Assembly: GCF_030065545.1 (NCBI RefSeq)
Contig: NZ_JASJNC010000005.1
Span: forward strand, 1-64,000
Reading direction: 5' to 3'
DNA from: Marinicella marina
Lineage (GTDB): Bacteria > Pseudomonadota > Gammaproteobacteria > Xanthomonadales > Marinicellaceae
DNA: 64,000 nucleotides
Positions 58,358-63,540 of this stretch are shown here, piece by piece. Below the pieces are notes generated by a model that was not told the DNA's origin, made no database searches, and saw only the letters and a program-made list of their open reading frames with translations. The position numbers were made by a program, and so were the translations under genes. Position 1 is the first letter of the stretch. Each line of letters opens with the position of its first letter.

Positions 58358-58948
58358 TCAGATTATCGGGCTGGGTACCAATGTTTGGTATTTCTCAACG
58401 GGGCCCTCAGCAGTGAAATCAGTGAGCTTCAGTGTGTTCAAGTCAAGCACATGGTCGTGGGGGTAGGGGTTTTTATCGTAATAAGTTTGCTCGCCACATT
58501 TGATGATTTGTATCAGTTTGGCCTCTACCAATTGTGCAATGACAGCCTCTGCGTCTTGTGTCCAGGGTGTTTGTTGTTGCGAAAAAAGCAATAGCGTGTC
58601 ATGGCAAGGATGTTGTGGTGTCATTCTGATAAACAACAGCATGTCAGCCATTTCATTGTGTCCGGCCAGGTCTATGGCTTCAAGGTCTTGAATGATTTGG
58701 AATTGATGCAGGCAACGCTGATGATGAAAACTCGCTTGCATCAACGCATATTGGGCCAATTGTTTTTCTATGATGAACGATTGGCTGGAAGTGCAACGGG
58801 CCAGGTTTTGTTGTAACTGCATGAACAGGTGTTTGGCCATGGGGCCCATCCAACTTCTGAAATTACGGGCTTTGTCGGTGTGGTTAAGTTGTAAGCAAAA
58901 CTCATGGGTGTTTTGGAAGTTACAGTCAATATGTAGTGTCCAGGTCAT
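58358..58948 (-). CDS. Fur-like protein with an unrecognised N-terminal part (tentative)
   Basis: 196 residues. Residues about 100-170 follow the Fur-family layout: a helix-turn-helix-like stretch, then AEAVIAQLVEAKLIQIIKCG, a wing with EQTYYDKNPYPHDHV and LKLTDF, comparable to the HHDHLIC...VIEF region of Fur. The key metal site is partly kept (His-x-His) but the usual CxxC is missing. The first 95 residues (MTWTLHIDCNFQNTHEFC onward) are not recognised. A Fur-box palindrome lies 36 bases before its start. It could be a diverged metal or other regulator; family assignment is tentative. Confidence 0.45.
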   Translation of the reverse strand: MTWTLHIDCNFQNTHEFCLQLNHTDKARNFRSWMGPMAKHLFMQLQQNLARCTSSQSFIIEKQLAQYALMQASFHHQRCLHQFQIIQDLEAIDLAGHNEMADMLLFIRMTPQHPCHDTLLLFSQQQTPWTQDAEAVIAQLVEAKLIQIIKCGEQTYYDKNPYPHDHVLDLNTLKLTDFTAEGPVEKYQTLVPSPII

Positions 58949-58983
58949 GATAATACATTGTTGAAAAATTAATCTTAAATATA

Positions 58984-58996
58984 AATGATAATCATT
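58984..58996. promoter_or_regulatory. Fur-box-like palindrome in a divergent promoter
   Basis: AATGATAATCATT is a perfect 6-1-6 inverted repeat and contains the whole core ATGATAATCAT of the Fur consensus. By eye, 14 of 19 consensus positions match. It lies between the Fur-like gene (minus) and the MarR-hut operon (plus). Iron-dependent binding is inference. Confidence 0.6.
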
Positions 58997-59071
58997 CGCA
59001 TTACAAATAAAACTTTGAAATATTTTGACTTGATATGCAGATTCAGAGAAAATAGCAAGCTATTGCGCAAC

Positions 59072-59593
59072 ATGTTACCTAAATTGACAAAGAACAACAA
59101 AAAATATCAATTAAATGAATCTTTTATTGGCAAACAAGCCGATGACTTGGGGCAATTAATCAGTGAACAAATCAGGCCACTGTATGACTCTTTGGGCATA
59201 GTGGTGCCGGTAAAATCTTGTTCAATCATCCATGCGCTAAACGAGGTTAAACAAGCCTCGGTCACAGAAATTGCGCGGTCATTGAAGCAGTCACATCAAT
59301 TGGTTAAACAGAAACTGCCGAGGTTACAAAAACTGGGCTTAATCACCGCCAGTTCTGACCCAAGTGACAAGCGTAAAACAGATTATCAACTGACTTCGAT
59401 GGGTCAAGACCAGGCGTTGTTGTTGAAACAACATTCCTTAGCAGCAGTTTACGAACAATTATCTCAAGAAGTTGGGGCAGACCTGTTTAAGGTGCTGACG
59501 GCCGCCATTGACGGCTTAAAAAACAAAGATTTAATGACCCGATTCAAACAACAACTACCTAATCATAGAAACAGCGAGACAACACATGAATGA
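59072..59593 (+). CDS. MarR-type regulator, likely for the hut operon
   Basis: 173 residues from ATG 59072. A frame opens at 58985 but its first codons are inside the Fur-box palindrome, so the later ATG is preferred. The winged helix-turn-helix is seen in [20 protein letters not shown] with [27 protein letters not shown], the MarR wing DPSDKR. It overlaps hutU by eight bases, so it is part of that operon. In other bacteria hut is usually run by HutC (GntR) or HutP; here a MarR protein seems to fill the place. Confidence 0.8.
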
Positions 59594-61259
59594 TCGAATC
59601 ATCAAAGCACCGACAGGCACTGAACTTAATACCCAATCATGGCTCATTGAGGCGCCATTGAGGATGTTGATGAATAATTTAGACCCTGATGTGGCAGAGC
59701 GCCCGGAAGATTTAGTGGTTTATGGCGGCATTGGTAAAGCAGCTCGAAACTGGGCTTGTTTTGATGGCATGGTGGATGCGCTTAAAAGGCTGAATGAAGA
59801 CGAAACTTTGCTGGTTCAGTCGGGTAAACCAGTGGGTGTATTTAAGACCCACATTGATGCGCCCAGGGTGTTGATTGCTAATTCAAATTTGGTGCCTAAA
59901 TGGGCCAATTGGGACCATTTCAACGAACTGGATAAAAAGGGTTTGATGATGTACGGTCAAATGACCGCAGGATCATGGATTTATATTGGCTCGCAAGGCA
60001 TTGTGCAAGGCACTTATGAAACCTTTGTAGAGGCTGGTCGCCAACACTTCAGTGGTGATACCAATGGCAAGTGGATCCTTACTGGTGGTTTGGGTGGCAT
60101 GGGTGGTGCGCAGCCCTTGGCAGCCACCATGGCGGGCTATTGTATGATTGCGGTGGAGTGCGATGAAACCCGAATTGATTTCAGGATGAAAACGGGCTAT
60201 GTCGATAAAAAAGCACAATCTATCGATGAAGCAATGAAACTGCTGAATGAAGCATTAGAATCAGGCCAGGCGATATCGATTGGCTTACTGGGTAATGCCG
60301 CAGATGTTTTTGCGCAAATGTATAAAAACGGCGTGCGCCCTGACTTGGTGACTGACCAAACCTCAGCACATGATCCAGTCAATGGCTACTTGCCGCAAGG
60401 ATGGAACGTCAGTCAATGGCGCCAAGAAGCCAAAACCAACCCAAAAAGAGTGGCTGCTGCTGCCAGAAAATCAATGGCAGTGCAGGTTCAGGCGATGCTC
60501 GATTTTCATGCATTGGGCATACCCACAGTTGATTATGGTAACAACATCCGCCAAGAGGCCTTTGATGAAGGGTTGGAAAATGCTTTTGATTTCCCAGGGT
60601 TTGTACCAGCGTATGTCAGACCTTTGTTCTGTCGTGGTGTGGGGCCATTTCGCTGGGCTGCCTTATCTGGTGATCCTGAAGACATCTATAAAACTGATGC
60701 CAAAGTCAAAGAGCTGATACCTGATGACCCTCATTTGCATAATTGGTTAGACATGGCTCGTGAACGCATACACTTTCAAGGACTGCCTGCGCGCATTTGT
60801 TGGGTCGGATTGGGCTTGCGACACAAATTGGGTTTGGCTTTTAACGAAATGGTTAAAACAGGTGAGCTCAAGGCACCAGTGGTGATTGGTCGTGATCACT
60901 TGGACTCAGGCTCCGTGGCTTCTCCCAACCGCGAGACAGAAAGCATGCTGGATGGCTCAGATGCCGTTTCGGATTGGCCGCTACTGAATGCCATGTTAAA
61001 TGTAGCTGGTGGGGCCACTTGGGTGTCACTGCACCATGGTGGCGGAGTGGGCATGGGCTACTCTCAACATTCAGGTGTGGTGATTTGTTGTGACGGCACC
61101 GATGCTGCTGCTAAACGAATCGAAAGGGTGTTATGGAATGACCCTGCCACTGGCGTCATGCGTCATGCCGATGCCGGTTATGACATCGCCAAAACATGTG
61201 CCAAGGAACATGCATTGAATTTACCGATGATCAATAAGACATGGGAGCAGCAATCATGA
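59586..61259 (+). CDS. hutU: Urocanate hydratase
   Basis: 557 residues, normal for the family. It hydrates urocanate to imidazolonepropionate with tightly bound NAD+ as electrophile. Motifs: [59 protein letters not shown] and [15 protein letters not shown]. Start overlaps the MarR gene and stop overlaps the hutH start by four bases (ATGA). Confidence 0.98.
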
Positions 61260-62782
61260 TTTTTACCATCAGCAATAAGGGCTTTACTCTGCAAGAGCTG
61301 CGCGAAATTTGGCAAAATCCGGTCGAGATCAAGGTCGATGACCACATGATGCAAGGCGTGATTCGCTCGCGCCAGACCATTGAACAGGTGGCGGCATCGG
61401 ATGAGACTGTGTACGGCGTCAACACAGGTTTTGGGCTGTTGGCCAATGTACAAATAGCCAAAGATGAGTTAGACACCTTACAACGAAATTTAGTGATTTC
61501 TCATGCCACTGGGGTTGGAAAGCCGATTGATATTGGCACCACCCGATTGATTATGGCACTGAAAGCCATGAGTCTTGCTCAAGGATATTCTGGCATTCAC
61601 CCGAACACGCTGAAACTTTTAACAGACATGATCAAACACGAGATTTATCCGATCATTCCGGAGAAAGGTTCGGTTGGTGCCTCTGGTGACTTGGCTCCAT
61701 TGGCGCATTTATCGGCTGCCATGATTGGTATGGGTGAGGTTTATTTTCAAGGTGGTGTGGTTGCTGCCATGGATGCATTGAATGCAGTGGGTTTATCGCC
61801 GATAAAATTGGGCCCCAAAGAGGGTTTGGCATTGTTGAACGGTACCCAGGTTTCGACCGCCTTGGCATTGAAAGGTTTGTTTCTTACTGAGAACTGCTTC
61901 TCCGCTGCGATTTTATCTGGTGCCTTATCGGTGGATGCAGCGAAAGGCTCCTTGTCGCCTTTTGATGAGCGCATTCACCAGGCCAGAAGGCAGGTGGGTC
62001 AAATACAAGTGGCGCGGGCCATACGTGGGTTGCTGAAAGACAGTGAAATCGTGGTATCACATGAGGATTGTGATCGGGTACAGGACCCATATTGTCTGCG
62101 TTGTCAGCCACAGGTGATGGGTGCGGTGTTAGATACCATCAATTATGTCGCTGATAAACTATTAATAGAAGCCAACGCTGCCACTGATAATCCATTGGTT
62201 TTTGCAGAACAAGGAGATGTCTTATCGGGTGGTAACTTTCATGCCGAACCAGTGGCACTGGTGGCAGATTTCTTGGGCATTGGTTTGACCGACATGACCA
62301 ACATGTCTGAGCGCCGCATGGCGATGCTGATTGACCCGGCCTTGAGTCGCTTACCGGCCTTTTTGGTGCCTGATTCAGGGGTCAATTCTGGTTTTATGAT
62401 TGCGCATGTGACAGCGGCGGCTTTGGCCTCAGAAAATAAAACCCTGGCTCATCCGGCCAGTGTTGATACCATTCCCACATCAGCCAATCAAGAAGATCAC
62501 GTCAGTATGGCCACTTTTGCTGGAAGGAAGTTAACCGATATGGCAGAAAATTCTGCTGCGGTTATCGGTATAGAAATGATGGGTGCTTGTCAAAGTATTG
62601 ATTTTCATCGAGATTTAAAAACTTCAGAGGCACTTTTTGCGGTGTATCAAAAAGTCAGAGAGGACGTGGCTTTCTTGGACAAAGACCGGATGTTTGCACC
62701 GGACATCAACCACATGCAGCAGTTGGTTTTATCAGGTGCATTGAATCAATTTATGCCGGCTTTATGTCCCTCTTTGAGTTAA
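61256..62782 (+). CDS. hutH: Histidine ammonia-lyase
   Basis: 508 residues from ATG 61256. It removes ammonia from histidine to give urocanate. The electrophilic MIO group forms from A142-S143-G144 in [16 protein letters not shown], at the same numbering as in Pseudomonas putida. [25 protein letters not shown] and [15 protein letters not shown] are further marks. It overlaps hutG by 19 bases. Confidence 0.98.
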
Positions 62783-63540
62783 GACAAGAGACATCGCCCT
62801 TGGTGATCAGTGTGCCGCACGATGGTGCTCAAATACCCGACGATATTGCAGCACTGATGAATCCGGCGGTGATGGGCTCAACTGACCGAGATTTATTGAT
62901 CAACGAGGTGTTTGAATTTGAGGGGTTTAAATATTCAAAAATCAAAGCCAACTATGCACGCCATGTGATTGATTTGAATCGTCCGGCCAGTGGTGAGGCT
63001 TTGTATCATAACCAAGCAGAAACCGAGCTATGTCCTACCAGTACATTTGATTTTCAACCGATTTACAAACCAGGGCTTGAGCCTGATACTGAAGCTGTCA
63101 AATACCGCATAGAAAATTACTGGCAGCCTTATCATAACCAGTTAAAAAAGTTGATTGATCAAGCCCAACAGGCCTATGGTTTTTGTTTGTTGCTTGATGC
63201 GCACAGCATTGATGATGAAGTGCCGAGGTTTTTTGATGGTCGCTTGCCAGACATCAATGTGGGTTCCAACGCAGGCAACTCTTGTGGCGCAGCCATTGAG
63301 TCGCTTTTGATGCATCAATTGGCGACCCAAGAACATTACAGTTACATCAATAATGGCCGATTCAAGGGTGGTTTTATCACTCGCCATTACGGCCAACCAG
63401 AAAGAGGTGTGCATGCCATTCAGTTGGAGCATGCCAAAAGTGCCTACCTGCATAAGAGCCAGTTCAGTGGTAATAAAACCCACAAATTACGTCAATTCTG
63501 GCAAGATTTGATAGCGGTGCTGTTAAAAAGCCTGAATTAA
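62764..63540 (+). CDS. hutG: N-formylglutamate deformylase
   Basis: 258 residues of the FGase family (not the arginase-like formiminoglutamase). Motifs: VISVPHDGAQIPDDI, HVIDLNRPASGEALY, LLLDAHSI and FKGGFITRHYGQPERGVHAIQLE, with metal-binding residues in the HDG, DAHS and QLE segments. It ends the five-step histidine route that passes via formylglutamate, giving glutamate and formate. hutI and a formiminoglutamate deiminase (hutF), needed for this route, are not in the window. Confidence 0.94.
   Translation: MSLFELRQETSPLVISVPHDGAQIPDDIAALMNPAVMGSTDRDLLINEVFEFEGFKYSKIKANYARHVIDLNRPASGEALYHNQAETELCPTSTFDFQPIYKPGLEPDTEAVKYRIENYWQPYHNQLKKLIDQAQQAYGFCLLLDAHSIDDEVPRFFDGRLPDINVGSNAGNSCGAAIESLLMHQLATQEHYSYINNGRFKGGFITRHYGQPERGVHAIQLEHAKSAYLHKSQFSGNKTHKLRQFWQDLIAVLLKSLN

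Follow-up and report, generated by a model that had tools for sequence, protein, structure and literature searches.

Organization of the locus

The window, by which we mean the entire 64-kb stretch of Marinicella marina DNA that was analysed, carries toward its end a group of hut genes headed by a gene for a MarR-family regulator, and on the opposite strand, facing the latter, a gene for a 196-residue protein that is referred to here as the left gene. The features of this region are the following:

58358..58948, minus strand: left gene, 196 aa; Fur/Irr/PerR-like C-terminal part (residues ~82-192) after an N-terminal domain (~1-84)
58697..58948, minus strand: N-terminal domain of the left gene product; beta-beta-beta-alpha-beta-alpha in the model, with no confident solved relative found
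58978..59006, minus strand: putative sigma-70 promoter of the left gene; TTGTAA at 59006-59001, 17-nt spacer, TATATT at 58983-58978
58981..59005, no strand: predicted Fur box; core AATGATAATCATT at 58984-58996, extended sequence AATGATAATCATTCGCATT at 58984-59002; conserved upstream of left-gene relatives
59025..59053, plus strand: putative MarR-hut promoter; TTGACT, 17 nt, GAAAAT (consensus scan)
59058..59079, no strand: putative MarR operator AGCTATTGCGCAACATGTTACC; TTGCG[CAT]AA conserved; overlaps the likely MarR start codon
59072..59593, plus strand: MarR-family regulator; start uncertain, ATG 59072 or TTG 59084
59586..61259, plus strand: hutU, urocanate hydratase; TIGR01228, 947.4 bits against a cut-off of 375
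61241..62782, plus strand: hutH, histidine ammonia-lyase; TIGR01225, 679.8 bits against a cut-off of 539.15 (region searched 61259-62782)
62764..63540, plus strand: hutG-like N-formylglutamate amidohydrolase; PF05013; TIGR02017, 254.4 bits, below the cut-off of 278.75

The right-hand protein is assigned to the MarR family by Pfam (PF12802, 32.7 bits against a cut-off of 27; PF01047, 25.0 bits against 24.6). The 202-aa open reading frame listed for it opens at an ATG (58985) that falls inside the palindrome; similarity of the protein to its relatives begins at ~59072 or later, and the intergenic region therefore spans ~58949-59071. Here the core of the predicted Fur box fills the spacer between the -35 and -10 hexamers of the putative left-gene promoter, a candidate scoring 9/12 in the consensus scan; the region holds five such hexamer pairs against 3.6 in shuffled sequences, and an excess over the shuffles is thus not clear. 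In the 16 left-gene matches described below, the core has promoter-like flanks in a roughly constant place, the best fixed spacing giving only a mean of 7.5/12 (range 4-10).

The palindrome as a candidate Fur box

A palindrome with the core of a Fur box was the starting point of the original prediction, and it holds up: the 13-mer AATGATAATCATT lies on the plus strand within the interval first flagged, matches the general consensus at 14 of 19 positions and is conserved in relatives. It is the only exact copy in the 64 kb, against a mean of 0.01 in dinucleotide shuffles. With up to two mismatches the 13-mer becomes uninformative, because the six occurrences in the window (shuffle mean 3.5) are equalled in 14 of 100 shuffles. 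For longer matches we used GATAATGATAATCATTATC, which we take to be the 19-bp Fur consensus; the palindrome has the top score of the window, and both matches of 14/19 fall at this place. Elsewhere in the 3.46-Mb genome the extended sequence AATGATAATCATTCGCATT does not recur, the six other sites found being each three positions off. A search of the whole genome with the general consensus at up to three mismatches returned two sites, one of which overlaps the box of feoAB, and the window palindrome is not among them. By the general consensus, the window site is only a moderate match; it is among the two weakest of 16 left-gene boxes, the relatives ranging from 14 to 18. Moreover, 12 of 300 random upstream regions, generated from the same sequence with a first-order chain, also reach 14, so that the site taken alone is weak and its conservation decides. 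It takes the top rank in the genome solely with patterns drawn from the site itself or from its family, so that this rank is circular.

Phyletic distribution of the box, the left gene and the MarR-hut genes

Of the 33 genomes of the family, 15 gave matches to the left protein, 16 in all (one in each genome and one paralogue), and 23 gave matches to the MarR protein; the two genes are divergent neighbours beside hut in nine genomes. A Fur-like box of at least 14/19 is present within 300 nt upstream of all 16 left-gene matches, and for 13 of these the observed score was reached by none of 300 random upstream regions. All 16 boxes contain the core AATGRTWATCATT, with a T at -4 in each of them and a G at -3 in 14. 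The loss of the palindrome from close relatives, which had been named beforehand as a result that would speak against it, is thus not what the left-gene relatives display. In an alignment of five of the nine divergent loci, 20 consecutive columns over the box are invariant and a second conserved island covers the MarR palindrome; the DNA that separates them is less conserved.

The box also accompanies the left gene when this gene lies elsewhere. In three genomes (G019, G028 and G022) the left gene is on a contig separate from MarR-hut and retains the box, and the MarR-hut loci of the same genomes have none (that of G028 with only 85 nt of upstream DNA). The left-gene paralogue of G010 likewise has the box and is away from MarR-hut. 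In G005 (L051 9296-9466) hemP precedes the left gene, and the Fur box stands ahead of hemP at 283 nt from the left gene (core to start). Conversely, among 22 MarR loci, the nine beside a left gene score 14-17 upstream, and the 13 others score 10-13, so that a box of at least 14/19 occurs in 0 of the 13. These 22 were taken from 26 MarR matches by omitting the weakest four (L046-L049; E 7e-11 to 2e-6); the 13 include two with just 85 nt (L028) and 101 nt (L040) of upstream DNA and one that is not beside hut (L045). The contig start in L028 (positions 1-33; G028:C112) resembles what we take to be a sequencing-library adapter, and the MarR upstream region there is therefore cut short. As the box accompanies the left gene and not the MarR gene alone, the palindrome is best read as a predicted Fur operator of the left gene and not as a hut switch.

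On the hut side there are a separate promoter-like site and a conserved MarR-type palindrome, both distinct from the predicted Fur box. The motif TTGCG[CAT]AA precedes MarR in 20 of the 22 loci (8/9 with the left gene and 12/13 without it), and TTGAC[AT] is found upstream of MarR in 17 (8/9 and 9/13, respectively). Eight loci have a hut -35 candidate, at 28, 27, 27, 38, 26, 59, 35 and 44 nt from the core of the box; in G003 no such candidate was found. A different arrangement is seen in four genomes (G002, G005, G018 and G013; L050, L051, L052 and L120), where hutU, named in these cases by eye, directly faces a Fur-boxed iron gene, and where no MarR match was found, between the two or elsewhere in the genome, at the cut-off used.

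The Fur complement and similar boxes in the genome

At an E-value threshold of 0.01, the genome has a single match to the Pfam FUR model (PF01475), which is an E. coli-type Fur (148.5 bits against an NCBIfam Fur cut-off of 146); the same search found no Zur-type gene. Across the family a PF01475 match is present in 31 of the 33 genomes, with exactly one in 28. The canonical Fur of this organism (L123 8283-8681) is itself devoid of the CxxC structural zinc motif (HHDHMVDVDSGKVMEF). A pattern built from the left-gene boxes detects similar sites in the genome ahead of feoA-feoB (by 16 nt), bfd (by 40 nt) and the gene for a TonB-dependent receptor (by 44 nt). Further matches (L005, L007, L154, L156 and L158) are located within or next to genes that have no obvious role in iron metabolism, and the reversed control pattern gives three matches in the genome. 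The predicted layout resembles that of Fur regulon promoters in Gammaproteobacteria, in sharing the TGATAATCATT core and the placement of the box in a predicted -35/-10 spacer, but differs from them in that the gene predicted to be controlled belongs to an unnamed family beside hut. The open-licence PubMed Central literature on Fur in Marinicella yielded nothing on this box or on the left protein.

The left protein as a divergent relative of the Fur superfamily

The original prediction ascribed to the left open reading frame a Fur-like wing and a His-x-His motif, and both are found in it. In direct searches with standard models, Pfam gives no match in the left protein; PF01475 is not matched by the window protein at E-values up to 1, and it is reached by only two of the 16 family members (best E 0.072). 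Among the NCBIfam models, at E of 0.1 or better, 13 of the 16 members match the PerR model, 8 Irr, 7 PerRB and 4 IrrA, all far below the respective cut-offs. The window protein scores 18.2 bits against a cut-off of 180 and 13.5 against 170 with the Irr/PerR-type models, the latter pair being that of the Irr equivalog, whose cut-off is not passed.

A profile of the left family matches proteins in 130 of 369 genomes of the class, with a best non-own E-value of 2.1e-11, mostly over profile positions ~80-189. Aligned by hhalign with a profile of 26 Fur/Irr-type proteins, themselves picked by their match to the left-family profile and hence not a random sample of Fur proteins, it yields a probability of 98.77 (E 1.1e-16). 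For this comparator set, loci were taken for 29 non-own matches, of which 27 were entered with the Fur of this organism; retaining proteins of 110-190 aa left 26 (25 from the class-search loci and the own Fur), four of which are named against NCBIfam. A profile search of the PDB matched the Leptospira PerR at E 0.0012. The predicted structure of the left protein has a mean pLDDT of 90.8, and its residues ~82-192 can be superposed on Mur, Fur, PerR and Zur chains, Z falling from 10.8 to 9.0 over the first 14 rows, against Z 8.2 and 7.9 for chains from outside the Fur family; Foldseek returned nothing at E 0.001 or better for the model (best E 0.01, probability 1.00). By these profile and model comparisons, the C-terminal half of the left protein is Fur/Irr/PerR-like. 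With the Irr/PerR branch (NCBIfam NF045677, NF045678 and NF052545) it shares the order of the winged-helix elements and the FYDxN...HxH...D site; it differs from that branch in having no AT[VI]Y helix, a shorter C-terminal part and ~84 additional N-terminal residues.

Full-length members of the family were recovered from 13 contig loci labelled as Marinicella or as metagenome-assembled genomes of Gammaproteobacteria, Lysobacterales and Alcanivoracaceae. Among the searches made, the full-length family was found only in Marinicella-type genomes; these searches comprised a contig scan with one peptide pattern, in which 13 of 28 stretches were confirmed, and the class searches of 369 genomes, and members in other kinds of genome may have escaped them. 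In the open-licence PubMed Central literature we found no description of the left protein and none of Fur-family proteins without a dimerisation domain.

Retention of the metal site and divergence of the recognition helix

The residues H113, D158, H164, H166 and D177, which correspond to the regulatory metal ligands of PerR (presumably H37, D85, H91, H93 and D104 in that protein), are present in all 15 orthologues. Of these five the paralogue (L023) retains D158 alone; it was excluded from the column identities given below. The AT[VI]Y motif of the recognition helix has the opposite distribution, being present in 26 of 26 comparators and in 0 of 16 helices of the left family (the one T[VI]Y counted in the family is in the tail of L023, outside the helix). 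Column identity in the recognition helix is 0.41 in the left family against 0.91 in the comparators, to be read beside the figures of 0.36-0.47 for other parts of the left protein, which are about as variable as the helix, and 0.67 for the whole domain of the comparators; the wing and metal loop of the left family reach 0.79. The winged-helix part carries a net negative charge in 13 of 15 orthologues, as against 11 of 26 comparators over a segment of about the same length. A structural zinc CxxC after D158 occurs in 0 of 16 members, which is not decisive because the canonical Fur of the organism is likewise without it.

This pattern suggests selection for metal or haem binding in the left protein, with little for the classical mode of DNA reading; it is compatible with DNA binding of some other kind. 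In Irr, an HxH pair is reported to be a haem site (PMC7762939), and this motif is the one haem-related feature of Irr seen in the left protein.

The N-terminal domain

Modelled alone, the N-terminal domain (~84 residues) has a pLDDT of 84.6. Structure searches with it returned no confident relative (Foldseek best E 0.69; VIA-align best Z 3.2), a result that does not show the predicted fold to be new. The NMR entry 2k7i of Agrobacterium ATU0232, presumably of the UPF0339 family, was not adopted as a relative (Z 2.9, rmsd 7.0). The idea of a HemP-Fur fusion was also discarded: the strands look HemP-like by eye, yet hhalign detects no sequence homology between HemP/HmuP and this domain, giving 0.13% with all 16 members and 0.35% with four divergent ones, and column shuffles did as well in 4 of 60 and 2 of 60 cases, respectively (the HemP set consisted of 22 fragments in 35 loci, found by pattern). 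A 405-aa protein of G085 (L160 1216-2433), which we take to be RoxA-like, matches the N-terminal profile around WFGRFA at E 5.8e-6 (9e-6 with another search size). A match of this strength occurs in one of 368 non-own genomes, two more at E of about 0.01 contain stop codons, and we treat the similarity as probably due to chance.

Gene neighbourhoods and the relation to HemP

Beyond the location of the box within a predicted promoter, the neighbours of the left gene are of an iron or haem type in some relatives. In G019 and G028 (L053 and L054), which represent a second genus, genes for a porin and an FMN-binding protein lie downstream of the left gene, as does one for a PepSY-type membrane protein in G028. 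These neighbours fit iron or redox uptake and might form an iron/redox cassette. The paralogue of G010 (L056 9495-10094) adjoins genes for a TonB-dependent receptor, an oxidoreductase, a CREG/DUF2470 protein and a FecCD-type permease. With genes of the haem/iron uptake type adjacent to it, this paralogue has kept its Fur box despite the loss of four ligands.

In G013 the position that the left gene has in the window, opposite a hutU-like gene, is taken by hemP (L120 9893-10087), which has a Fur box of 14/19; neither the left gene nor MarR was found in that genome. In several species, then, an iron or haem gene sits across from hut, though not always the same one. As a Fur-boxed gene in this hut-facing slot, the haem-uptake regulator HemP/HmuP of G013 is comparable to the left gene. 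HemP/HmuP are described as small helper proteins that bind haem and may work together with Irr or Fur (PMC9131926). Among the 33 genomes hemP was found in five, the left gene in 15 and both in one, numbers that are too few to claim mutual exclusion of the two.

Functional interpretation and alternatives

From the sequence, its conservation and the homologies we infer the following mechanism. When iron is plentiful, Fur-Fe(II) would cover the -35/-10 spacer of the left-gene promoter and keep the gene silent; upon iron shortage the gene would come on, probably along with feoAB, bfd and the TonB-dependent receptor gene, which have similar boxes. The hut operon would fire from its own promoter, whose -35 element is predicted 28 nt past the box core, and the MarR-family protein would control it by way of the ATTGCGCAA palindrome, which lies where the MarR gene itself begins. 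A probable origin of the left protein is the Irr/PerR side of the superfamily; it appears to have retained the regulatory His/Asp site while losing the recognition residues, shortening the dimerisation part and adding the N-terminal domain. It might bind Fe(II) or haem and then counteract Fur or adjust iron and haem genes. To this reading as a whole, a Fur operator in the left promoter, a hut operon run by MarR and a left protein that is an iron- or haem-responsive derivative of Irr/PerR, we assign a probability of about 0.8.

The joint control of hut through the same box was part of the original prediction, and Fur could in principle repress or activate MarR-hut from upstream while serving the left gene as well. 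The intergenic region is short and shared, the hut -35 candidate is 26-28 nt from the core in four of eight loci, and in the four genomes noted above hutU directly faces a Fur-boxed iron gene with no intervening MarR. However, the spacing to the hut -35 candidate drifts between 26 and 59 nt, the box stays with the left gene at places away from hut, a box of at least 14/19 is missing from all 13 MarR loci that are not adjacent to that gene, and hut has a conserved palindrome of its own; we therefore regard joint control as unlikely. The suggestion of zinc-dependent control of histidine use through Zur fares worse. A zinc-limitation study of Klebsiella (PMC7874612) reportedly mentions the hut operon (ten times), and such links may exist elsewhere, but the sole FUR-family gene detected in this genome at E 0.01 is Fur, and the box has the form of a Fur box and sits in the predicted left promoter, so that this explanation is highly improbable. 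As to a chance AT-rich repeat, the 19-mer score is indeed equalled by some random upstream regions and the general consensus at three mismatches misses the site; against this stands a box in every one of the left-gene upstream regions with much less conserved flanks, and we consider coincidence to be practically negligible. Of the earlier proposal, the Fur-box-like site and the Fur-like character of the left protein are supported, and a hut or zinc switch is unlikely.

The left protein could also be a regulator that binds DNA in the ordinary way by means of an altered recognition helix, perhaps one that regulates its own gene through the palindrome. The winged helix is intact in the predicted model, and members of the Fur family often bind near their own gene. 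Yet the helix varies among relatives that have the core of the palindrome in common, which disfavours the left protein as its reader, and the prevalent negative charge of the winged-helix part likewise counts against such a regulator; this alternative is doubtful, if worth keeping in mind. Most likely, the left protein is responsive to iron or haem and either acts on another regulator, first and foremost Fur, or recognizes DNA with a novel specificity. A parallel in the proposed role is provided by Fpa (YlaN) of Staphylococcus aureus, an Fe(II)-binding antagonist of Fur (PMC11559061); the likeness is confined to the proposed relief of Fur repression by an iron-binding protein. The more specific proposal, namely that an Irr/PerR-type scaffold was turned into a Fur-repressed metal or haem sensor that has given up canonical DNA reading and either feeds back on Fur or assumes the part of HemP in haem use, whose hut-facing slot it occupies, is offered tentatively.

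While the Fur box itself is ordinary, the gene that it is predicted to control encodes an unusual member of the Fur superfamily: its metal site is made of invariant residues, its DNA-reading helix has drifted, and it matches no Fur-family model of Pfam or NCBIfam above the cut-off. In Marinicella this protein is likely to be a Fur-repressed, iron- or haem-responsive regulator or an antagonist of Fur, a role that is directly testable in cultured species of the genus. If the left protein does modulate Fur or haem uptake, it would illustrate how a metalloregulator may become a non-DNA-binding sensor.
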